A stretch of 64,000 nucleotides of DNA from an uncultured Clostridia bacterium (GTDB taxonomy: Bacteria > Bacillota > Clostridia > Christensenellales > CAG-917). Below, in pieces: positions 3,055-12,918 of this stretch (within the stretch, counting starts at the first letter, position 1; each line of letters opens with the position of its first letter). Where the stretch lies: NCBI GenBank assembly GCA_944332815.1, contig CALVKQ010000007.1, positions 1-64,000 of the forward strand. The letters run 5' to 3'. The notes under the pieces are model-generated. The model was given only the letters and a program-made list of their open reading frames with translations, ran no database searches and had not been told where the DNA came from. The position numbers were made by a program, and so were the translations under genes.

Positions 3055-3492
3055 TTACTGTCCGCCGTACTTTCGGACGAGGTATTGCAGCGCCTCCGTG
3101 TAGCCCGAAAATCCTTTGCCGCATATCTTCTTTTCGGCGTATAGAGAAACATAGCTGAAACGGCGGAACTCCTCCCTTGCGTCTATGTCCGTGAGGTGCA
3201 CTTCCACCGTGGGCAGCCCCACCGCTTTCAGGGCGTCAAGGATGGCGACGGAGGTATGGGTGTAGGCGGCGGCGTTGATGACGATGGCGTCCGCGTTGCG
3301 GTAAGCGCGCTGTATCTCCGTCACGATCGCGCCTTCGCTGTTGGACTGGAAGAAGGTGACTTCCGCTCCGAGTTCCGCCGCGGCGCGTTCTATGCTGCCC
3401 ACGAGGGCGGCATAATCGGCTTTGCCGTAGAGGTCGGGCTCGCGGATGCCGAGCATATTGATGTTAGGCCCGTTGATCACGGAAATTTTCAT
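3055..3492 (-). CDS. aroQ: Type II 3-dehydroquinate dehydratase
   Basis: The 145-residue product matches the type II (dodecameric) dehydroquinase family in length. It catalyses 3-dehydroquinate to 3-dehydroshikimate in the cytoplasm. Family motifs are GPNINMLG near the N-terminus, REPDLYG with the catalytic Tyr, NAAAYTHTS (usually NPGAYTHTS) and VEVHLTDIDAREEFRR (usually EVHxSN..REEFR). The catalytic His is kept, while the usual Pro-Gly and Ser-Asn pairs are changed. It is the last gene of the aromatic operon, and its start overlaps the end of aroE-aroK by 29 bp, indicating translational coupling. Identity is firm; the effect of the substitutions is unknown. Confidence 0.95.
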   Translation of the reverse strand: MKISVINGPNINMLGIREPDLYGKADYAALVGSIERAAAELGAEVTFFQSNSEGAIVTEIQRAYRNADAIVINAAAYTHTSVAILDALKAVGLPTVEVHLTDIDAREEFRRFSYVSLYAEKKICGKGFSGYTEALQYLVRKYGGQ

Positions 3493-4732
3493 AGAACAGC
3501 TCCTTTATCTTTCGGGCGCAGCTTTCTGCGTCGCCGTCGTTGTCCGCTTCCGCGTCCGCAAACGCGGTGTAGACGGGCATACGTTCTCTGCTCATCGCCG
3601 CCAGCGTTTCCGCGTCGCGGGAGAGAGGTCTGCCCGAAGTTTCCAGCTTTTCGATGCTGCGGCGGAGCAGCACGACGAAGCCGTTGCTTTTCAGGGCGTA
3701 TCTGTTTTGCTCGAACATCGGCGCGCCTCCTCCCGTGGCGATGACCGCGCCCGTCTTTGCCGCGCATTCCGCGACGGCGGCGCGCTCCTCGGAGCGGAAG
3801 GTCCCTTCGCCGTATTTTTCAAACAGTTCGGGGATGGTGGATAAAGTGCGGGTCTGCACCAGAGCGTCCGTGTCCTCGAAGGGACGGGAGAGCATTTCGG
3901 CAAGCAGCCGACCCACGGTCGTTTTGCCCGAGGAGGGCATGCCGATGAGCACGATGTCGGTGAGCTTTGCGGTCAGTTCGCGCCATACGCGGAGTATCTC
4001 TTTGCCTTCCGCGCTTTCGGGTGAGGGCTCGCGGTACTCCTCTCCGCGGAAGAGGATGTCGGCGGCTTTGGCTTGCGCCGTCAGCATGAGCAGTCCGCTG
4101 CCCACCGCCGCGCCCAGTTCCGCCGCCTTTTGTGAGAGCAGGGTGCGCAGGGGGTTGAAAACGGCGTCGAACACCCCTTCGAGTTCGGGGAATATCGCAG
4201 GATCCACGGGCGTGTGCGCCGCATTAGGAAACATCCCGACGGGAGTTGTGTTGATGAGCACCTGCGTATGCGTGAGCCGCGGCAGATCGCGGTAAGTGAC
4301 TTCCCCGGAGCGTGAGATCACGGTGACGGACGCCGCTCCTTCGCGCTGCGCCAGCGCGCATGCCGTATGCGACGTTCCGCCGCTTCCAAGCACCACCACG
4401 TGTTTGCCTCGGAGGGATATGCCTGCGTGACACATCGCAAAGTGCATCCCGTAGGCGTCCGTGTTGTAGCCCGTCAGCCTGCCGCCGTTATTTACGACGG
4501 TGTTCACCGCGCCGCATTCAGAGGCTGTGAAGTGCAGACTGTCCATATACGGCATCACGTTCCGCTTGTGGGGGATGGTGACGTTTATGCCGATGAAGTC
4601 GCGCTTTTCAAAGAATTCCCCCAGCTTCTCGGCAGGCATGGGCAGCAGTTCGTAGTCCGTTCTGCCGTATGCCGCGTGCAGACCGGGCGAAAAACTGTGT
4701 CCCAGCGGATCGCCGATGAGCCCGAACTTCAT
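3464..4732 (-). CDS. aroE-aroK: Fused shikimate dehydrogenase - shikimate kinase (AroE-AroK)
   Basis: One 422-residue chain contains two enzymes. Residues 1 to about 255 are AroE (3-dehydroshikimate + NADPH to shikimate). They carry the SFSP substrate motif, NVTIPHKRNV with the catalytic Lys, NTDAYG with the catalytic Asp, and GSGGTS of the Rossmann fold. Residues about 260-422 are shikimate kinase, with the P-loop GMPSSGKTT, D-T-D (FEDTDAL), FRSEE and GGGAP. No stop or frameshift lies between them, so this is a true fusion of consecutive pathway steps. The ATG overlaps the pheA stop as ATGA. The fusion fits substrate hand-over of shikimate, which is inferred. Confidence 0.95.
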   Translation of the reverse strand: MKFGLIGDPLGHSFSPGLHAAYGRTDYELLPMPAEKLGEFFEKRDFIGINVTIPHKRNVMPYMDSLHFTASECGAVNTVVNNGGRLTGYNTDAYGMHFAMCHAGISLRGKHVVVLGSGGTSHTACALAQREGAASVTVISRSGEVTYRDLPRLTHTQVLINTTPVGMFPNAAHTPVDPAIFPELEGVFDAVFNPLRTLLSQKAAELGAAVGSGLLMLTAQAKAADILFRGEEYREPSPESAEGKEILRVWRELTAKLTDIVLIGMPSSGKTTVGRLLAEMLSRPFEDTDALVQTRTLSTIPELFEKYGEGTFRSEERAAVAECAAKTGAVIATGGGAPMFEQNRYALKSNGFVVLLRRSIEKLETSGRPLSRDAETLAAMSRERMPVYTAFADAEADNDGDAESCARKIKELFYENFRDQRA

Positions 4733-5874
4733 TGCGTCACCTCGTGATAGCAGCCGAGGAACACGAACTGTTCCGTGCCCTGATCCAGTTCCGCGATGAG
4801 GGAGAGGGTGTCGGAGTTCTCTATCTGTCCTTCGAAGTCGAAGTAGAACATGAACTCGAAGTCCGTCCCGGGCAGGGGTCTGGATTCCAGCTTGGTGAGG
4901 TTGAGCCCCAGCGTGGAGAACTTGTTGAGCACGCGGTTGAGGGAGCCGGATTCGTGGGGGAGGGTCATCATGACGCTGATGCGGTCGGCAGGAGCGAATA
5001 TCTCCAACTTTTTGCTTATGCAGATGAAGCGCGTGTAATTGGAGTCGTTGTCCTGGATGTTGCTGTCCAGTATGCCCAGGTCATACAGCTCCGCGCAGCC
5101 GCGCGAGGAAATGCAGGCTATGTCCTTTCTGTCGGAGGATGCCACCGTTTCCGCCGCGACGGCGGTGTTGGGGCAGGCGGTCACTTTGACGGAGGAGGGA
5201 AGTTTTTGCAGATACGCCGCGCATTGGGCTATCGCCTGTTCGTGGGAGTATATCTCTTTGATGTCGGACAAGGACACTCCCTTCTTTGCGAGCAGATGAT
5301 GGCTGACTTTCAGTTTTATGCTGCGCACGATGTAAAAGCGGTGTTTCTTCATGAGGTCGTAGACCGCGTTCACGCTGCCCACCGCGCTGTTTTCGATGGG
5401 GAGCACGCCGTAGTCGCACAGCCCCTTTTCCACCGCCTGGAACACCCCTTCGAAGTTGCGGAAGAAGGTGATGTCCGCGATCTCGAACAGTTTGTCCGCG
5501 GCAATGGAGGAGTAACTCCCTTCCACCCCCTGGCAGGCGACGGTGCTGGAAACGGGGAAGTACTTCTTGCCCTCCATGAGCACGCGTCTGAGGTCGTCCG
5601 AAAGGGGGGTCACGGGGGCGACAAGACGGCGTTGATAAGCGCGTGAAGTTTCGATCATCGTTTCAAACACGCGTTTAAGATATATTTTCTGCTCGTCATC
5701 CGCCTGTTTTGTCACTCTGGCGATGATCTTCTTTTCGCGCGCGGGGTCGGCGACGGCGGTGTGAGTGCGAGCCTTTTCCTCCCCTATCTCACGCACTGTG
5801 TTCTGACGTTCCAGATAGAGCGCGGCGATCTTGTCGTCTATCTCGTCTATCTTTTTTCTGAGTTCTTCCAACAT
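4729..5874 (-). CDS. pheA: Chorismate mutase / prephenate dehydratase (P-protein)
   Basis: The 381-residue product has three domains. An N-terminal AroQ-type chorismate mutase helix bundle (about 1-85) begins LEELRKKIDEIDDKIAALY. A prephenate dehydratase domain (about 110-285) contains QGVEGSYS and PIENSAVGSVN. A C-terminal ACT domain carries LESRPLPGTDFEF, the ESRP motif that binds phenylalanine in feedback inhibition. It converts chorismate to phenylpyruvate, so it commits flux to Phe. The start has AAAGAGGTG upstream, and the stop overlaps the next gene by 4 bp. Regulation is probably double: enzyme inhibition through ACT and transcription control at the operon leader. Confidence 0.95.
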   Translation of the reverse strand: MLEELRKKIDEIDDKIAALYLERQNTVREIGEEKARTHTAVADPAREKKIIARVTKQADDEQKIYLKRVFETMIETSRAYQRRLVAPVTPLSDDLRRVLMEGKKYFPVSSTVACQGVEGSYSSIAADKLFEIADITFFRNFEGVFQAVEKGLCDYGVLPIENSAVGSVNAVYDLMKKHRFYIVRSIKLKVSHHLLAKKGVSLSDIKEIYSHEQAIAQCAAYLQKLPSSVKVTACPNTAVAAETVASSDRKDIACISSRGCAELYDLGILDSNIQDNDSNYTRFICISKKLEIFAPADRISVMMTLPHESGSLNRVLNKFSTLGLNLTKLESRPLPGTDFEFMFYFDFEGQIENSDTLSLIAELDQGTEQFVFLGCYHEVTQ

Positions 5875-5886
5875 ATATACACCTCT

Positions 5887-6981
5887 TTATCGGTTTCTGT
5901 TTTGTCTTTCCGCGTCCAGCACGGCGTCCAGCACGGCGAGGGCGGCAGCCGCTTCCACCGCGGCGACGGCGCGCGGCACGACGGTGGCGTCGTGTCTGCC
6001 TTTCACAGTGATCTCCGTGTCCGTCATGTGGGCAAGGTCCACCGTCTTCTGCGGCAGAGATATGGACGGGGTGGGGCGGAACGCCGCGCGGAATGTCACC
6101 GGCATCCCGTTGGTGATCCCTCCGTTTATGCCGCCCGAATCGTTTTTGAGGGTCACGACCTTTCCCTCTCTGACGGCGAAGGGGTCGTTCGCTTCGCTGC
6201 CCGTCATGCGCGCAAGTCCGAAGCCTGCGCCGAATTCCACGCCCTTGACGGCAGGGATGGCGTACACCGCCGCAGCCAGTTTGCTCTCCATGCCCCCGAA
6301 GAGCGCGTCGCCTATGCCTGCCGGCATGCCGTATATCACGCATTCCACCACTCCGCCCACGCTGTCGCCTCTTGCGGCGGCGGCTTTGGCGCGCGCTGCG
6401 GCTTCGTCTGCGGAGGAGAGCATGGGCAGAGGAAGCTCGTGGCAGGCGGTCACCGTACGGTAGTCGGGAGGAGTGGGAGAGTAACTTCCGCCTTTAACGC
6501 CGGCAAGTTCGCCGATGTAAGCGGCGACGAGGATGCCCCTCCTTTCCAAAAGCTGTTTTGCCACGCCGCCCACGGCGACGAGAGGGGCGGTCATCCTGCC
6601 CGAAAAGCGTCCGCCTCCCGAGCGCGCCGCGTTTTCGCCGTCCTTGACCCATGCGCAATAGTCCGCATGAGAGGGACGGGGGGTGACGGTGTAGGTGTAA
6701 TCCGCAGGGCGGATGTTTCCGTTCACGATGCGCACCGTGAGAGGTCCGTCCAGGCGGTAGGTCCCGTCGCCGAGAGCCTGCGCGCCCTCCCATACGGCGA
6801 GGTCCTCCTCTCTGCGCGGAGTGGAGAACAGATATTTGCCGCTCTTCCTGCGCGCGGCGAACTCCGCCACTTTGCCGGCGTCGAAGGTTTCGCCGACGGG
6901 CAGCCCCGTCACCGTCGCGCCTATCTCGGGGGAGTGGGACTCTCCGAATATGTTCACGTCAAGCACATCAAAGACTTTCAT
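5887..6981 (-). CDS. aroC: Chorismate synthase
   Basis: The 364-residue product converts EPSP to chorismate using reduced FMN. Signatures are FGESHSPEIG at the N-terminus, RRKSGKYLFSTPRREED, RPSHADY, GRFSGRMTA and the C-terminal NDSGGINGG. An upstream in-frame ATG at 7014 would add eleven residues. The ATG at 6981 is chosen because GGGAGGTC lies 8 nt before it and because the protein then begins directly with the conserved MKVFDVLDVNIFGESH. This start lies 14 nt inside the 3' end of aroA, as expected for a coupled operon. Confidence 0.94.
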   Translation of the reverse strand: MKVFDVLDVNIFGESHSPEIGATVTGLPVGETFDAGKVAEFAARRKSGKYLFSTPRREEDLAVWEGAQALGDGTYRLDGPLTVRIVNGNIRPADYTYTVTPRPSHADYCAWVKDGENAARSGGGRFSGRMTAPLVAVGGVAKQLLERRGILVAAYIGELAGVKGGSYSPTPPDYRTVTACHELPLPMLSSADEAAARAKAAAARGDSVGGVVECVIYGMPAGIGDALFGGMESKLAAAVYAIPAVKGVEFGAGFGLARMTGSEANDPFAVREGKVVTLKNDSGGINGGITNGMPVTFRAAFRPTPSISLPQKTVDLAHMTDTEITVKGRHDATVVPRAVAAVEAAAALAVLDAVLDAERQNRNR

Positions 6982-8215
6982 GCGTCCGACCTCCCAAACG
7001 TCGTATGTCCTCAAAGAAAGAGGGGTATGACTTGTCCACCGCTTCGGCGTCCGTCACACTGCCTCCCGAAACCAGCCCGGCGACGGCGGCGGACATCACC
7101 ATGCGGTGGTCGTGTTCGCCGTTTGCGGCGAAGGGATGTATCCCCCCTCCGAACACGGTGAGCGTCGCGCCGTCCGTTTGCGAGCGCACGCCCATGGCGT
7201 CGAGAGAGCGTATTATGGCGGCAAGCCTGTCGCTCTCCTTGTCTTTGAGTCGGGACACGCCTCGCATCACGCTTTTGCCTTTCGCCTGCGCCATAAGGAC
7301 GGACAGGACAGGGGCGAGGTCGGGAGTGTCTTCGACGTCCGCCGAAACGCCGCGGAGTTCGCCTTTTTCCGCGCGGCATGCGCCGTCGGAAAGGGTAACG
7401 CGCGCGCCCATACGCGTCAATATATCTGCGATGGCGCGGTCGCGCTGTGCGCTCGTGGGGTCCAACCCTTTCACCGTCACGTCCCCAGTCAGTGCGCCTG
7501 CCGCAAGCAGGAAGGCGGCGGAGGACCAGTCCCCCTCCGCACGGACGGTGCCGGGAGAGTGCAGTCTGCCTGCCGGGACGGTATATTCGCCGTCCGCGAA
7601 ACTTATATGTTTGTTAAACGCCGCGAGCGCATTCACCGTCATTTCCGTGTAGCCTTCCGAAACGGGCTTGCCTATGAGGCGGAGAGTGCAGCGTCTGCCC
7701 GTGCAGGCAAGCGCGAAGAGCATTCCGCTGACGTACTGGGAACTCACCGACGCTTGCACGGAGAAGTTCTCCGCGGTCAGACGTCCGCCCGTGATGAGGG
7801 GCAGTGCGTCCGAGCCTATTTCCGCGCCGCCTTTGCGCAGCGCGTCCGCGAGAGCCGCGATGGGGCGGTGGGGCAGTCTGCCCTTGCCCGTGAACGTGGC
7901 TTTCGTCCCGAGCGCGCACGCCACCGGCAGCAGAAAACGCAGTGTGGAACCGCTCTCGCCGCAATCCAGCACCGCGCGTTCCTCGGGCTGCGCCACGGGG
8001 GTCACTTCGTAGCCGTCCTCCGTGCGCGATACTTTTGCGCCGAGTGCGGCAAGACAGTTCGCCGTCGCCTCTATGTCACGGGACACGGCAGGGCACACCA
8101 CCTTGCAGGGCGCGTCGGAAAGCGCCGCCGCGATGAGCAGCCTGTGTGCGTGGGACTTGGAGGGAACGGCATCCGCTTCCCCCCTCAGAACGGAGGGCGA
8201 GAGGGTGACTTTCAT
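6968..8215 (-). CDS. aroA: 3-phosphoshikimate 1-carboxyvinyltransferase (EPSP synthase)
   Basis: The 415-residue product joins PEP to shikimate-3-phosphate. It has the SKSHAHRLLIAAAL N-terminal motif (DKSISHR type), CGESGSTLRFLLP at the PEP and glyphosate site, GRLPHRPI, SSQYVSGMLFALA, EDTPDLAPVL with the catalytic Asp, KDKESDR with the catalytic Glu, and DHRMVMSAAVAG. The PEP-site loop reads ESGS rather than the NAGT of class I enzymes, so herbicide class cannot be assumed. The open frame extends further upstream, but those residues are not EPSP-like. The ATG at 8215 overlaps the aroB stop as ATGA and is taken as the start. Confidence 0.94.
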   Translation of the reverse strand: MKVTLSPSVLRGEADAVPSKSHAHRLLIAAALSDAPCKVVCPAVSRDIEATANCLAALGAKVSRTEDGYEVTPVAQPEERAVLDCGESGSTLRFLLPVACALGTKATFTGKGRLPHRPIAALADALRKGGAEIGSDALPLITGGRLTAENFSVQASVSSQYVSGMLFALACTGRRCTLRLIGKPVSEGYTEMTVNALAAFNKHISFADGEYTVPAGRLHSPGTVRAEGDWSSAAFLLAAGALTGDVTVKGLDPTSAQRDRAIADILTRMGARVTLSDGACRAEKGELRGVSADVEDTPDLAPVLSVLMAQAKGKSVMRGVSRLKDKESDRLAAIIRSLDAMGVRSQTDGATLTVFGGGIHPFAANGEHDHRMVMSAAVAGLVSGGSVTDAEAVDKSYPSFFEDIRRLGGRTHESL

Positions 8216-9243
8216 GACAGGAATCCTTTCAGTTCGTCCGCGGTCATGGGGAGGATGTCGCAGTTGCCTATGCCGCGTATGACGACGGCGTTGAGTTTGC
8301 CGTCCGCTATCTTTTTGTCGTGCACGGTATGTTCCATGACGGACGCTAGGGAGTAGGGGCAGTCCGAGAACCCGTACTTTTGCAGCAGCGCAGAGATGCG
8401 CAGATAATCTTCCTTCGGAAGGAACCCGGCCTTCACGGACGCGCGCGCGATGACTTTTATCCCCATCGCCACGCACACGCCGTGCGGAAATCCCATCGCG
8501 CTCTCCGCTTCGATGGCGTGTCCGACGGTGTGACCGAGGTTCAGAAGCCGGCGGATGCCGCCCTCATTCTCGTCCGCCTCCACTATGCGGCGTTTGTAGT
8601 CCACGGCAAGGTCGACAAGCCTTTCCGTGTTGCTTTCGTCCAATCCCTTTTCCATGATGTCGAAGATCTCTCCGCCCGTCAGCACCGCGTACTTCAACGC
8701 TTCGCCTATGCCGCACTTCCATTCCGCTTTGGGGAGGGTGGAAAGGGTGTCGAGGTCGCAGACGACGGCGCGCGGAGGATATATCCTGCCTGCCAGATTC
8801 TTGCCTGCTTTGAGGTCCACCGCGGTCTTCCCTCCCACGGAAGAGTCTATCGCCGCGAGCAGGGTGGTGGGCGCTTGCACGTACGGCACCCCACGCATAT
8901 ACACGCTCGCGACGAACCCGGCAAGGTCGCCCACGACTCCTCCGCCCAACGCGATCACCGTGTCGTCGCGGCAGAATCCGTCACCGGCGAGTTTTTCGAG
9001 CAGTTCGCCGGCGAGCGCCCAGTTTTTGCTCTTTTCGCCGTGAGGGACGACGTAGTGCAGGGTGCCCTCGGGCAGCGCCGAAAGCAGGGTGTCAAGATAG
9101 AGTGGCGCGACGTTGTCGTCCGTGAATACGGCGGCTTTGGTGTTGCCGCGGCAGACTCCGGCAAGCGCCGGCAGCTCTTTCAGGAGTCCGTGTCCCGTGA
9201 TGACCGGATAGGCTCCCCCGGAGGCGTTGATGACTGTCCTCAT
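8212..9243 (-). CDS. aroB: 3-dehydroquinate synthase
   Basis: The 343-residue product cyclises DAHP to 3-dehydroquinate using NAD and a divalent metal. Family motifs are present in order: GEKSKNW, ALGGGVVGDLAGFVASVYMRG, PTTLLAAIDSSVGGKT, KCGIGEALKY with a metal-binding Glu, and LNLGHTVGHAIE with a metal-binding His. Length is typical. AGGAGA precedes the ATG. It follows tyrA with a 54-nt gap and is coupled to aroA by a 4-bp overlap. Confidence 0.96.
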   Translation of the reverse strand: MRTVINASGGAYPVITGHGLLKELPALAGVCRGNTKAAVFTDDNVAPLYLDTLLSALPEGTLHYVVPHGEKSKNWALAGELLEKLAGDGFCRDDTVIALGGGVVGDLAGFVASVYMRGVPYVQAPTTLLAAIDSSVGGKTAVDLKAGKNLAGRIYPPRAVVCDLDTLSTLPKAEWKCGIGEALKYAVLTGGEIFDIMEKGLDESNTERLVDLAVDYKRRIVEADENEGGIRRLLNLGHTVGHAIEAESAMGFPHGVCVAMGIKVIARASVKAGFLPKEDYLRISALLQKYGFSDCPYSLASVMEHTVHDKKIADGKLNAVVIRGIGNCDILPMTADELKGFLS

Positions 9244-9297: not shown

Positions 9298-10176
9298 TCA
9301 CGCGTTATCTCCCTCTAATGCGTGTTGCAGCTTTTTCGCCCTGTCTTTTTCCACGGCGAGTTTCATCCTGTTGCCGCTGTCCAGCAGACGGAACAATCCC
9401 TTATCGTCGCCGCTGTCCAGCGCGTCGGCGTACTCCGTCATGCGCCCTGCCATGGCGCGCACTTCACGGGAAAGGAAGTCCGCGTTCTCGCGCATGAGTT
9501 CCGTCCACATGGCGGCGTTCATCCTTGCCACCCTGGTCATGTCGCGGAAGCTGCCTGCCGAGTAGCCGTAATGCTTCTCTGCCGAGTCCGTGCGCACGTA
9601 TGCGGAGGAAACGACGTGTGCGAGCTGCGAGGTGTAGGCTATCATTTCGTCATGGGTGTCCGCGTCCGTTATCAGCACGCCTTCCGCGCCCACCGACACG
9701 TACATCTTTTTGAGGGCGGCGAGCGCTTCCAGCGAGGCGGAAACGGGCACGAGCAGCACGGAAGAGTTTTCGTAAAGCCCTGCCGTGGAATGCGTCACGC
9801 CGCTGAATTCTCTGCCTGCCATGGGGTGTCCGCCCACGAAAGCGATGTCCGGACGCTCTTTTGCGTAGCGTTGCATGAGCGTCTTGACGGGGCGTTTGAC
9901 GCCTGCCACGTCCGTCACCGTCGCTCCGCTCTTCATGAGGGGGAGCAGGCGGTCCAGGATGCCGGGCATCGCGGAGGGCAGCACCGCAAGGACCAGAATG
10001 TCCAGTTCCGCCGCGGCGGCGTCGGTGAGCTCCTCGTGATAGGCGTTCAGCATGCCGCCTTTGAGCATCGCTTCCGCGTCCCTGTCCGAGGCGTAAACGG
10101 TGTGTTCCGTCTTTTTGACGAGGGCGCGCCCCAGCGAGCCGCCCATCAGCCCCAAGCCTACTATGCCGATCTTCAT
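9298..10176 (-). CDS. tyrA: Prephenate dehydrogenase
   Basis: The 292-residue product oxidatively decarboxylates prephenate to 4-hydroxyphenylpyruvate, the Tyr branch. It starts with the Rossmann motif GIVGLGLMGGSLG, followed by TDVAGVKRPV and VGGHPMAGRE with the catalytic His, and an all-alpha dimerisation half. No C-terminal ACT domain is present, unlike the longer Bacillus enzyme, so Tyr control may rest on the operon leader. The ATG at 10176 overlaps the stop of the upstream DAHP synthase as ATGA; a start 21 nt upstream is possible but less likely. Confidence 0.93.
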   Translation of the reverse strand: MKIGIVGLGLMGGSLGRALVKKTEHTVYASDRDAEAMLKGGMLNAYHEELTDAAAAELDILVLAVLPSAMPGILDRLLPLMKSGATVTDVAGVKRPVKTLMQRYAKERPDIAFVGGHPMAGREFSGVTHSTAGLYENSSVLLVPVSASLEALAALKKMYVSVGAEGVLITDADTHDEMIAYTSQLAHVVSSAYVRTDSAEKHYGYSAGSFRDMTRVARMNAAMWTELMRENADFLSREVRAMAGRMTEYADALDSGDDKGLFRLLDSGNRMKLAVEKDRAKKLQHALEGDNA

Positions 10177-11189
10177 TTGTCGCGCTCCTTGCCGCACACG
10201 GTGAGCAGCACGTCTATGCGTTTCACCAGGTCGTCGAACTGTTCGGGACGCAGGGACTGCGCTCCGTCCGACAATGCGTGCACGGGGTCGTTGTGCACTT
10301 CTATCTCCAATCCGTCCGCGCCGGCGCCCACCGCGGAGAGGGAGAGGGGGAGCACCAGTTTCGCCCTTCCGGACGCGTGGCTGGGGTCCACCAGGATAGG
10401 CAGATGCGTCAGTTCGCGCAGGACGGGGATGGCGGAAAGGTCGAGAGTGTTGCGAGTGTACGGCTCAAAGGTGCGGATGCCGCGTTCGCAGAGGATGACG
10501 TTCATGTTGCCTTCGGACATGATATATTCCGCGCTCATCAGCCACTCTTCGATGGTGGCAGCCATGCCGCGTTTGAGCAGGACGGGTTTGTCGGTCTTGC
10601 CCAGCTCTTTGAGCAGCTCGAAATTCTGCATATTGCGCGCGCCCACCTGGATGAGGTCCACGTCCTCGAAGAGGGGGAGGTGTCTTATGTCCAGGATCTC
10701 CGTGCAGACGGGCATGCCGACCTCCTTTTTGGCGAGGGAGAGCAGGCGCATCCCCTCCGCGCGCAGTCCCTGGAAGGCGTAAGGCGAAGTGCGCGGCTTG
10801 AACGCGCCGCCTCGCAGCACCGTGGCGCCGGAGGCTTTCACCGCCTTTGCGACCGTGATTATCTGTTCCTCGCTCTCCACGGAGCAGGGTCCGGCGATGA
10901 GCTGGAAGTGCCCTCCGCCGAACAGATGTCCGCCCACGTCCACCACGGTGTCCTCGGGGTGGAACTTGCGGTTGGCGTTTTTGAAGGGCTCCTGTATGCG
11001 TTTCACGCTCTCCACGATGTCGAGGGAGCGGATGAGGTCCTCGTCCACGACTGAGGTGTCGCCTATGAGCCCCATGATGGTGGTGTTGTCGCCCTTGCTC
11101 ATGTGGATGTCCAGCCCAAGCCCCTTTATCCACTTGACCAGGTTGTCCATCTGCTTTTTATCGGGATTGTTTTTGATGACGATGATCAT
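10173..11189 (-). CDS. aroF: DAHP synthase with N-terminal ferredoxin-like domain
   Basis: The 338-residue product condenses PEP and erythrose-4-phosphate to DAHP, the entry step. It is the type I beta form. An N-terminal ferredoxin-like regulatory domain (about 1-70, beginning IIVIKNNPDKKQ) precedes a KDO8P/DAHP barrel with IAGPCSVESEEQ, RGGAFKPRTSPYAFQG, VGARNMQN, CERGIRTFE and VDPSHASGR. In Thermotoga this N-terminal domain mediates feedback inhibition by Phe and Tyr. The start has AGAGGAAAG upstream. It is the first structural gene after the leader peptide and attenuator, so its transcription depends on them. Confidence 0.96.
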   Translation of the reverse strand: MIIVIKNNPDKKQMDNLVKWIKGLGLDIHMSKGDNTTIMGLIGDTSVVDEDLIRSLDIVESVKRIQEPFKNANRKFHPEDTVVDVGGHLFGGGHFQLIAGPCSVESEEQIITVAKAVKASGATVLRGGAFKPRTSPYAFQGLRAEGMRLLSLAKKEVGMPVCTEILDIRHLPLFEDVDLIQVGARNMQNFELLKELGKTDKPVLLKRGMAATIEEWLMSAEYIMSEGNMNVILCERGIRTFEPYTRNTLDLSAIPVLRELTHLPILVDPSHASGRAKLVLPLSLSAVGAGADGLEIEVHNDPVHALSDGAQSLRPEQFDDLVKRIDVLLTVCGKERDK

Positions 11190-11220
11190 ATCTTTCCTCT
11201 TTCACGCGCGTCCGAGTCAA

Positions 11221-11249
11221 ACAAAAAGACCGCCGGTATGGCGGTCTTT
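11221..11249 (-). terminator. Attenuator terminator of the aro operon
   Basis: On the minus strand AAAGACCGCC, the loop ATACC and GGCGGTCTTT form a 10-bp stem followed by a short T-run. It sits between the leader peptide and aroF, where a simple terminator would abolish expression. An alternative pairing destroys it: CGGTATGCGCGG (11274-11285, end of the leader ORF) is complementary over 11 pairs, with one bulged C, to CCGCCATACCG (11234-11244) in the terminator arm and loop. Confidence 0.85.
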
Positions 11250-11269
11250 CGACGGTCTTGTTGCCGTGT

Positions 11270-11353
11270 TCATCCGCGCATACCGCAAAACGGGCTCTCG
11301 TAAAAGCCCTTAAAGTAAAAGTATGCGTAGCTGTTCGAACGGACGTTTTTCAT
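11270..11353 (-). CDS. Phe/Tyr-rich leader peptide of the aro operon
   Basis: This 27-codon frame lies 17 nt after the promoter -10 and ends 20 nt before the terminator stem. Its core NSYAYFYFKGFYESPF has four Tyr and four Phe codons in fifteen, as in the pheA and pheST leaders of enterobacteria. A ribosome stalled on uncharged tRNA-Tyr or tRNA-Phe would leave the last codons (CGGTATGCGCGG) free to pair with the terminator arm. A ribosome that reaches the TGA stop would cover them and allow termination. The ribosome site is weak (GGTAG). The encoded peptide needs no function beyond being read. Identification rests on composition, position and RNA pairing. Confidence 0.82.
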   Translation of the reverse strand: MKNVRSNSYAYFYFKGFYESPFCGMRG

Positions 11354-11367
11354 AGTTTTCTACCGAT

Positions 11368-11396
11368 AATATAAAGCGCATTTTCGCAGTTGTCAA
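11368..11396 (-). promoter_or_regulatory. Promoter of the aro operon
   Basis: TTGACA (11391-11396) and TATATT (11368-11373) are separated by 17 nt on the minus strand, a near-consensus housekeeping promoter. Transcription would begin about 8 nt before the leader peptide start. Confidence 0.8.
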
Positions 11397-11421
11397 CACA
11401 TTTTCGGTGGGTTTTCGGCAT

Positions 11422-12918
11422 TTATTCCGCAGGGAGCTCCTGCGCCGCGGAGGGCAGGGGATCTTCAGCCGCCGAGAGGTTGAGGACGCTGATGGCGTCC
11501 GTGATGCTCTTTTCCATGGCGAGCTTGCCGTAGGCGTCCACTTCGCGCTTGTTTTTCTCGCCGTGAGTGAGGCATCCGGCGCCGCCGATGCACCCGTCCA
11601 CGCACGCCATGCCCTCTATGAAGTTGGCGTCCAGCACGCCCTTCGATCTGCGCAGGAGCGCGGTGCGGCAAGCCTCTATACCGTCGCAGGTGACGGGTCT
11701 ATACTCGAAGTCGGTTTCGCCCTGTTCTTTGAGCGCCTGCGCCACCGCGTCCGTTATGCCGCCGCTCCTTGCGAATATCCTGCCGAAATAGGACGCGTTG
11801 TCCAGCACGCTTTCCGACAGCGTTTCCAGCTCTATATCGCGCGAATCGAAGAGGGCTTGCAGTTCCTCGAAGGTGATGACGGAGTCTATATACGGGCGCA
11901 CTTCCGGCTTTTGGAACTCCATTTTCTTCGCGGTGCAGGGACCTATGAACACGACCTTGCAGGGGGAGGACGTGCTCTTGATGTACTTGGCTATGGTCGC
12001 GGCAGGGGAGAGATTTGCGGAGATGTGGGGCGCGATGTCCGGGAACTGCTTCTTTATGTAATCCACGAACGCCGGGCAGCAGGAGGAGGTGAGGAACCCC
12101 TTTTCTTTGAGTTCCGCCGCTTCCTTATACGCCACCATATCCGCGCCGAGCGCGGCTTCCACCACACTGAAAAAGCCGAGCTTGCGTATGCCCGTCACCA
12201 CCTGCCCCAGTTTGGCGTAAATGAACTGGCTGGACACCGAGGGAGCGACGACCGCATACACCTTGTATTCGGTGTTGTCCGCGCTCTTTTTTATCATGTC
12301 GATGACGTCCAGGATATAGCTCTTGTCGATTATCGCCCCGAAAGGACATTGATAAACGCACGCGCCGCACGCGATGCACTTGTTGTTGTCTATGCTCGCC
12401 GCCTTGTTCTCGTTCATGGAGATGGCTTTCACCTTGCAGGCGTATTCGCAGGGACGGCGACGGGACACTATCGCGGTGTAGGGGCAGACCTTCGCGCACT
12501 GACCGCACTCCACGCACAGGTTTTTGTCGATGTGCGCCTTTTGCTGGTGGTCGAAGGATATGGCGTTGCGTTTGCACACGTCCTCACAGCGGTGCGCAAG
12601 GCAGCCGCGGCAGGCGTTGGTCACTTCGTAGCCGCCGGCAGGGCAGTCGTCGCACGCGATGTCGATGACCTCTATGACGTTGGGATTGCTGCGGTCGCCG
12701 CCCATGGCGAGTTTGACGCGCTCGGAAATGATGGCGCGCTCCTTATACACGCAGCAGCGCATGGTGGGAGTGTTGCCCGAGATGATGGTCTTGGGGATGT
12801 CGGTTATCTTGTCCAGCAGGTCGCCGTTCCACGCGCCGCGCGCCACTTCGCGCAGCACTTTGTATTGGAGATACTGAACTTTTGTGTCGAATTTTCTGCG
12901 TTTCTTGATGTCGTCCAT
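11422..12918 (-). CDS. [FeFe]-hydrogenase, group B-like, with ferredoxin domains
   Basis: The 498-residue product has several N-terminal 4Fe-4S sites (CRGCLAHRCEDVC, CVECGQCAKVCP, CIACGACVYQCP) followed by an H-cluster domain. The three H-cluster signatures are TSSCCPAF (near 274), FIGPCTAKKMEF (near 324) and MACVDGCIGGAGC (near 437). They differ from group A HydA (TSCCPxW, MPCxxKxxE) and resemble group B enzymes of Clostridia. It would oxidise or evolve H2 with ferredoxin-type electrons in the cytoplasm. Maturases HydEFG are not in the window. It is the last gene of the Rex-AdhE-HydS unit, 92 nt after the phosphatase. Group assignment is from motif appearance only. Confidence 0.85.
   Translation of the reverse strand: MDDIKKRRKFDTKVQYLQYKVLREVARGAWNGDLLDKITDIPKTIISGNTPTMRCCVYKERAIISERVKLAMGGDRSNPNVIEVIDIACDDCPAGGYEVTNACRGCLAHRCEDVCKRNAISFDHQQKAHIDKNLCVECGQCAKVCPYTAIVSRRRPCEYACKVKAISMNENKAASIDNNKCIACGACVYQCPFGAIIDKSYILDVIDMIKKSADNTEYKVYAVVAPSVSSQFIYAKLGQVVTGIRKLGFFSVVEAALGADMVAYKEAAELKEKGFLTSSCCPAFVDYIKKQFPDIAPHISANLSPAATIAKYIKSTSSPCKVVFIGPCTAKKMEFQKPEVRPYIDSVITFEELQALFDSRDIELETLSESVLDNASYFGRIFARSGGITDAVAQALKEQGETDFEYRPVTCDGIEACRTALLRRSKGVLDANFIEGMACVDGCIGGAGCLTHGEKNKREVDAYGKLAMEKSITDAISVLNLSAAEDPLPSAAQELPAE

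Follow-up and report, generated by a model that had tools for sequence, protein, structure and literature searches.

How transcription of an aromatic amino acid operon is controlled in a clostridial genome is the question raised by the short region upstream of aroF in the window (i.e., the whole 64,000-nt stretch of DNA that was analysed). Gram-positive aromatic operons are usually described under T-boxes, TRAP or riboswitches, and classical attenuation is usually attributed to Proteobacteria and Actinobacteria, with the enterobacterial pheA, pheST and trp leaders serving as ribosome-mediated attenuators. An earlier note, made from the letters of this DNA, had proposed such an attenuator with both Phe and Tyr as signals, composed of a consensus promoter, a 27-codon ORF with eight Tyr/Phe codons, an intrinsic terminator before aroF, and an 11-pair alternative with one bulge that uses up an arm of the terminator. 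When checked in the window sequence, all leader elements were found on the minus strand at the coordinates given there, and promoter and ORF proved to be as described (Table 1).

Table 1. Features of the aroF leader and operon in the window, and T-box-like elements elsewhere in the genus.
Feature	Position	Strand	Remarks
Promoter (TTGACA, 17 nt, TATATT)	11368..11396	-	11/12 consensus matches; spacing to ATG 14 nt
Leader ORF, MKNVRSNSYAYFYFKGFYESPFCGMRG	11270..11353 (stop included)	-	27 codons + TGA; kept in 10/10 genus genomes
Region 1, CGCATACT, within Tyr-Ala-Tyr-Phe codons	11320..11327	-	able to pair with region 2
Small hairpin in ORF, GGGCTTT / AGAGCCC, between regions 1 and 2	11292..11309	-	from folding and genus alignment
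Region 2, antiterminator 5′ arm (last leader codons)	11274..11285	-	ends 2 nt before stop codon
Region 3, antiterminator 3′ arm (terminator 5′ arm + loop)	11234..11244	-	from pairing analysis
Intrinsic terminator (regions 3:4) + U-rich tail	11221..11249	-	from folding vs. shuffles
aroF, DAHP synthase, type with N-terminal extension (PRK08673)	10173..11189	-	above NCBIfam cut-off
tyrA, prephenate dehydrogenase	9298..10176	-	E 1e-41, below curated cut-offs
aroB, 3-dehydroquinate synthase	8212..9243	-	above NCBIfam cut-off
aroA, EPSP synthase	6968..8221	-	above NCBIfam cut-off
aroC, chorismate synthase	5887..6981	-	above NCBIfam cut-off
pheA, chorismate mutase-prephenate dehydratase	4729..5874	-	215.9 bits vs. 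cut-off 219
aroE-aroK fusion (shikimate dehydrogenase + shikimate kinase), single ORF	3464..4732	-	both halves match, below curated NCBIfam cut-offs
aroQ, type II 3-dehydroquinate dehydratase, last gene of the run	3055..3492	-	above NCBIfam cut-off
T-box-like elements	L096:1501-1744 (G000:C8:65538-65781); also L091-L095, L097, L098		UGG-like specifier

The eight shikimate/Phe/Tyr genes downstream of the leader (aroF-tyrA-aroB-aroA-aroC-pheA-aroEK-aroQ) share one strand and are tightly packed or overlapping, a spacing that points to a single transcript from aroF to aroQ. Judging from their family matches, these genes make the very amino acids, Phe and Tyr, that the leader would sense, and one peptide may serve for both since the operon makes both. 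Tyr or Phe occupies codons 9, 11, 12, 13, 14, 17, 18, and 22 of the leader ORF (8 of 27; Trp is absent), and this ORF takes up most of a leader of ~140 nt. The promoter was the sole promoter-like site detected in a scan of positions 10800–11800 (where shuffles expect 0.3), and transcription is predicted to start 6–8 nt downstream of it, i.e., at most ~10 nt from the leader AUG.

Directly upstream of the leader and on the same strand lies a gene whose product scores above the cut-off of TIGR04105 (monomeric [FeFe] hydrogenase; 11422–12918, minus strand), and its read-through would therefore cross the attenuator. Since a terminator is expected after a hydrogenase gene in this orientation, the arrangement could also reflect chance, with a Phe/Tyr-rich small ORF lying beside the terminator of the upstream gene and with aroF being constitutive or driven from elsewhere. 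The promoter, however, sits between the hydrogenase gene and the ORF.

The terminator before aroF (stem 11249–11225) reached –16.2 kcal/mol; when the sequence downstream was shuffled by dinucleotide, 3 of 200 versions did as well. It was absent from the output of a simple terminator scan. The competing duplex of regions 2 and 3 (11285–11274 with 11244–11234) comprises the 11 pairs and one bulge (a C) that had been noticed, and its –15.9 kcal/mol stood out from shuffles of the leader segment (z –4.06, p 0.010). Both states could be obtained by folding, the entire leader adopting the 1:2 helix plus the terminator (z –3.73) and the leader minus region 1 adopting the 2:3 helix (z –2.57). The effect of 1:2 as a ‘protector’ was inconsistent, however, with the antiterminator in ribosome-free RNA scoring 0.80 in the window and anything from 0.01 to 0.99 over the genus in a cotranscriptional model.

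In this model, the transcript was made through region 3 and the ribosome was assumed to mask everything as far as 13 nt past the beginning of its A-site codon. Stalls at codons 9–18 of the window leader yielded an antiterminator value of 0.99–1.00, which fell to 0.00 once the ribosome stood at the stop codon, so that the alternative pairing would indeed be covered by a ribosome that has reached the leader stop. One correction applies to the earlier reading: with the ribosome halted at codon 22, the final Phe codon, the value was 0.40 and region 2 was just partly free, so that 7 of the 8 Phe/Tyr codons would be useful sensors. The nine other genus leaders gave 0.00 at the stop codon and at least 0.5 at 7–9 of their 8–10 Phe/Tyr codons, and ten family leaders from outside the genus retained 0.16–0.61 with the ribosome at the stop codon (i.e., partial cover). 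Stalls at non-Phe/Tyr codons within codons 1–8 and 15–20 of the window leader favoured the antiterminator too; since these neighbouring stalls act alike in the model, specificity would rest on codon content.

Anatomy, conservation and modelled behaviour fit the Phe/Tyr attenuation proposed earlier, and it is highly likely that the window leader is a ribosome-mediated transcription attenuator of the aroF-to-aroQ operon, predicted to sense Phe and Tyr. When charged tRNA-Phe and tRNA-Tyr are both ample, the ribosome would reach the stop codon and mask region 2, and the terminator would form. When either charged tRNA is scarce, the ribosome would stall at codons 9–18 and region 2 would stay free to seize region 3 during transcription, upon which the polymerase would continue into aroF. 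The choice between terminator and antiterminator is likely kinetic, since region 4 has yet to be transcribed when regions 2 and 3 come together. In equilibrium folding with region 4 included (11 leaders), the terminator prevailed at most stall positions (at all of them in L102), and in the window the balance was tipped by stalls at codons 13 and 14 only; transcription order must therefore matter if the mechanism holds.

The earlier note had held that homologous leaders lacking the Tyr/Phe codons or the alternative pairing would speak against such a switch. Within the genus, both were kept, together with aroF and the terminator, in 10 of 10 genomes (i.e., aroF, leader ORF, regions 2 and 3, and terminator). 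The 2:3 duplex beat shuffles at p 0.005–0.025 in each of the 10 genus leaders, which are not independent of one another, and in L007–L009 a longer terminator loop is accompanied by a correspondingly longer 2:3 helix. Since regions 2 and 3 hardly vary in the genus, no 2:3 covariation can be drawn from it. The hairpin inside the ORF was paired in 100% of cells in these 10 leaders, with two of its seven pairs varying on one side only.

The leader peptide is near-constant in the genus as well (core YFYFKGFY and end GMRG), beyond what codon counting needs, as would be expected if the peptide, with free Phe or Tyr as ligand, arrested its own ribosome and codon content were secondary. Peptide-mediated ribosome arrest with Trp as ligand operates in TnaC. 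The conserved peptide parts coincide, however, with RNA helices (region 1, the inner hairpin, and region 2), Tyr and Phe swap at codon 9 within the genus, and outside the genus the order of residues is free while Phe/Tyr content is kept, making nascent-peptide arrest an improbable explanation.

The leader predicted to act as a ribosome-mediated attenuator recurs in the wider family, in which aroF was found in 38 of 43 genomes (39 loci, two of them in G029) and a leader at 34 of these 39 loci (10 in the genus, 23 others, and L100). The 23 others lie at most 350 nt upstream, have a terminator, and contain at least five Phe/Tyr in 12 codons; the leader of L100 lies further upstream, and its terminator was identified by eye. 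No leader was found at L110, L118, L123, L125, and L099, the last having 53 nt of upstream contig only. The two aroF copies of G029 lie near each other on opposite strands of contig C5, each with its own Phe/Tyr leader (L101 and L127).

The switch helices are largely rewritten across the family. Sister-genus leaders such as MKRNFATFAFYFNFGYIA have region 2 just past the stop codon (GTTTGGTGT vs. ACACCAAAC), and another family genus pairs TTTGCGTGCGGT with ACCGTTACGCAA as regions 2 and 3. Against mononucleotide shuffles, the 2:3 pairing reached p<0.05 in 15 of the 23 family leaders outside the genus and the 1:2 duplex in 6 of 23; for L119–L121, the stretch tested for 2:3 began too late for the likely region 2 inside the ORF. 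Outside the genus, the family has 21 distinct leaders, of which 18 combine Phe with Tyr and 3 contain Tyr only. The latter (L103, L107, and L126) carry runs of Tyr codons (e.g., AYYYYYGYLR), and some relatives may thus sense Tyr alone.

Covariation, which the earlier note had suggested as a check, was seen for two of the three helices. In the 16 of the 23 family leaders that were aligned, 6 of the 14 pairs of helices 1:2 and 3:4 showed two-sided changes, against a shuffle mean of 1.9 (0 of 500 shuffles reached 6, and slid versions gave 1–3). For helix 2:3, 90.3% of cells were paired in the same 16 leaders (88.3% in shuffles; 31.0–52.9% in slid versions), but one pair had changed on both sides, which is within chance (250 of 500 shuffles).

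The start of the leader ORF differs across these groups. Among the 21 family leaders outside the genus with a promoter match (L101–L127, including one duplicate pair), 18 have their ATG 6–8 nt past the –10 box, and transcription in the sister genera would therefore begin at or beside the AUG (predicted leaderless). In the genus, this spacing is 13–17 nt (14 in the window), with the script having chosen an earlier ATG for L007, the likely one being 16 nt away when counted by hand; in distant named leaders, it is 20–40 nt (43 of 47). A Shine-Dalgarno-like motif precedes the leader ORF in 4/10 genus, 5/21 family, and 42/56 distant leaders, and is missing from the window leader; before aroF it occurs in 9/10, 27/29, and 72/80 cases, respectively. 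An attenuator leader ORF at the RNA 5′ end has been described for trpL of Sinorhizobium meliloti, whose RNA is reported to begin with the ATG (PMC7298713). That leader concerns Trp and has a reported 5′ end, whereas the 5′ ends here are predicted from spacing, with a short 5′ UTR of several nt being predicted for the window itself. The sister genera with predicted leaderless leader ORFs offer a test case for timing Shine-Dalgarno-free initiation to transcription.

More distant aroF loci were sampled as a named set, consisting of the best 80 of at least 594 aroF loci (63–75% identical) and therefore biased towards relatives, with at least one overlap with the family set (L012 is the same place as L106). 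With an ATG-started ORF of 10–45 codons within 320 nt and at least six Phe/Tyr in 12 as criterion, 57 of these 80 loci have a Phe/Tyr-rich ORF, compared to 7 of 800 dinucleotide-shuffled sequences and, when the loci are read as reverse complements, 2 of 80. Residue groups without Phe or Tyr stayed near or below shuffle level (Leu/Ile, 7/80 vs. 49/800), and Leu/Phe (18/80 vs. 93/800) and Tyr/Asn (8/80 vs. 2/800) were raised. Admitting GTG and TTG starts increased the number to 61 of 80, which together with the 10 genus leaders makes 71. A terminator of at most –10 kcal/mol follows all 71 leaders (57 of 710 shuffles), and region 2:3 reached p<0.05 against dinucleotide shuffles in 40 of the 71, i.e., in 30 of the 61 outside the genus, with 31 of 61 missing that level. 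At L018 and, more weakly, at L060, L031, L048, and L078, ORFs resembling leaders lay at a greater distance or fell short of the criterion, so that ‘no leader’ at some of the 18 named loci with a missing or weak leader is partly a cut-off effect; no Rfam family reached its gathering score at these 18 loci.

These distant leaders also bear on whether the ORF might instead encode a small protein with a function of its own, such as a membrane peptide. The leader peptide is hydrophobic and conserved in the genus, as such a protein might be, but distant leaders conserve Phe/Tyr content alone, vary in length, and are in all 71 cases of that set followed by a terminator, which renders a small-protein function very unlikely. 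Leaders were also present in some MAG records titled Treponema, Lentisphaerae or Thermoguttaceae (assigned by title alone); other relatives in the named set, with L012 of the family among them, bear Clostridia titles. Moreover, a region 2 motif around TTTTGCTGCAAA recurs at distant loci such as L024, L028, L047, L061, L065, and L087, where it often encodes Ala-Ala near the peptide end and faces terminators starting with CCGCAGTGAAA. This combination is a putative second, recurrent version of the same switch.

A sample of the entire class comprised 147 genomes, 111 with an aroF match, and the upstream DNA of the best copy was examined for 100 of them (setting aside this genome itself, another with just 132 nt of upstream DNA, and nine whose matches were lower-ranked, partial or unlisted). 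Of the 100 loci, 47 have a Phe/Tyr-rich ORF in the 500 nt upstream, with a terminator in 45 of the 47, and the same criterion selected 9 of 500 mononucleotide-shuffled sequences and, for the loci read as reverse complements, 6 of 100; the two without terminator (L139 and L206) are chance-like. Phe/Leu-rich and Leu/Ile-rich short ORFs occurred at 24 and 15 of the 100 loci, respectively, as would suit a fortuitous ORF beside the hydrogenase terminator. Such a coincidence is nevertheless hard to reconcile with the presence of the leader at all 10 genus loci, its excess over shuffles at the named loci, and the covariation of helices 1:2 and 3:4, and we deem it extremely improbable.

T-boxes were detected at 6 of 55 class loci (the 53 lacking a leader, together with L139 and L206), with four of the six exceeding the Rfam cut-off, and at 6 of the 75 loci tested overall. 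The presence of T-boxes before aroF in some relatives without a convincing leader, together with a candidate riboswitch reported before aroFBC-tyrA in Enterococcus faecium (PMC4448216), lends some support to the view that a T-box, riboswitch or other tRNA- or metabolite-binding RNA governs aroF and that the ORF is incidental. A T-box (RF00230) would likewise respond to tRNA charging by way of a terminator, but it binds the tRNA directly and involves no translation. No T-box or other Rfam RNA reached its gathering score anywhere in the window, the region before aroF included, none of the 20 leader-bearing class loci checked (of 47) matched any Rfam family at E 0.001, and the ~140-nt leader is mostly ORF, leaving scarcely any probability for a ligand-binding RNA at this locus.

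Phe/Tyr leader ORFs thus outnumber T-boxes upstream of aroF in the class sample, and the earlier impression that this kind of leader is unusual in Clostridia did not hold. Both counts are lower bounds, since aroF is not always the first gene and only 500 nt were examined. On balance, we lean towards the broader view that aroF across Clostridia is controlled at the RNA level mostly by the dual Phe/Tyr ribosome attenuator, which would be commoner than the T-box, with codon content being kept while peptide and helices are freely rewritten, and that the family of the window has moved to leaderless leader ORFs in which 5′-end ribosome loading would be part of the switch.

The window leader resembles the enterobacterial pheA, pheST and trp leaders in its peptide, which abounds in the amino acids under control, in the competition of helix 2:3 with helix 3:4, and in having region 2 beside the stop codon. 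It differs from them in belonging to another phylum-level lineage without sequence match (no Rfam match), in counting two amino acids with a single peptide for a complete pathway operon, and, together with its relatives, in its predicted ultrashort or absent 5′ UTR before the AUG. Closest in gene context is uORFC-13-1 of Acholeplasma, a uORF with one or more Phe codons and a terminator before the same gene for which attenuation has been proposed (PMC8632094). As described there, it is confined to Acholeplasma and environmental sequences (24 examples) and has at least one Phe, whereas the window leader is clostridial and has eight Phe and Tyr codons, a comparison made by description only. Leader-peptide attenuation in Firmicutes is also represented by the His leader peptides of hisZ/hisS in bacilli, in a report that presented this as the first case beyond Proteobacteria and Actinobacteria (PMC2965389), and hisZ of Clostridium difficile is among predicted attenuators (PMC4833913). 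Unlike the window leader, those of hisZ/hisS concern a single amino acid and genes of the tRNA-synthetase family, with no biosynthetic pathway operon (PMC2965389). According to a 2005 survey, no Firmicutes tRNA-synthetase gene is under classical attenuation, and T-boxes are cited there for tyrosine (PMC1262725). In Flavobacterium, amino-acid operons are likewise suspected to be preceded by leader-peptide attenuators (PMC9723704). The open-licence PMC literature that was searched yielded no account of Phe/Tyr leader peptides before a clostridial aroF. The attenuation mechanism itself is known; the Phe/Tyr aroF leader class in Clostridia is new within the open-licence literature searched. Since the leader carriers include two named cultured species, Angelakisella massiliensis (L028) and Sporobacter termitidis (L080), clostridial Phe/Tyr attenuation is open to experiment.

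Leader peptides do not appear to be a general habit of the genus. Scanning 1500 nt upstream of pheS (10 loci), ilvB-like (9), and hisD (9) for short ORFs rich in Phe, Ile/Leu/Val, and His, respectively, yielded matches at 6/10, 2/9, and 0/9 loci, all of them at least 1,189 nt upstream and resembling parts of other genes, and the idea was dropped; this negative result counts for little, since these genes may not lead their operons.

Finally, the leaders largely disregard the third aromatic amino acid. Trp codons are absent from genus and family leaders and present in few distant ones (6/56 and 11/45), and Trp sensing by the leader was rejected as a candidate, a Trp-only criterion (6 of 12) selecting 0 of the 80 named loci. 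No trpD was found in any of the 10 genus genomes, the identical search finding it in 14 of 14 control genomes. A T-box-like element, scoring below the Rfam cut-off, occurs once per genome in 8 of the 10 genus genomes (Table 1) and in all eight adjoins, on the same contig, a gene for a TrpB-like enzyme, the copy of the own genome scoring above the cut-off for TrpB-like PLP enzymes. Trp was likely omitted from the leader because the genus lacks trpD and because this TrpB-like enzyme seems to be under a separate T-box; on the simplest reading, the cells obtain their Trp by uptake or from indole and sense it by other means. The genus seems to split its aromatic sensing, with Phe and Tyr being read by codon counting and Trp by T-box. 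At the specifier position, AATATGGGCCC is identical in 8 of 8 T-box-like elements, and a Trp-type UGG specifier could be read there by eye from the alignment.
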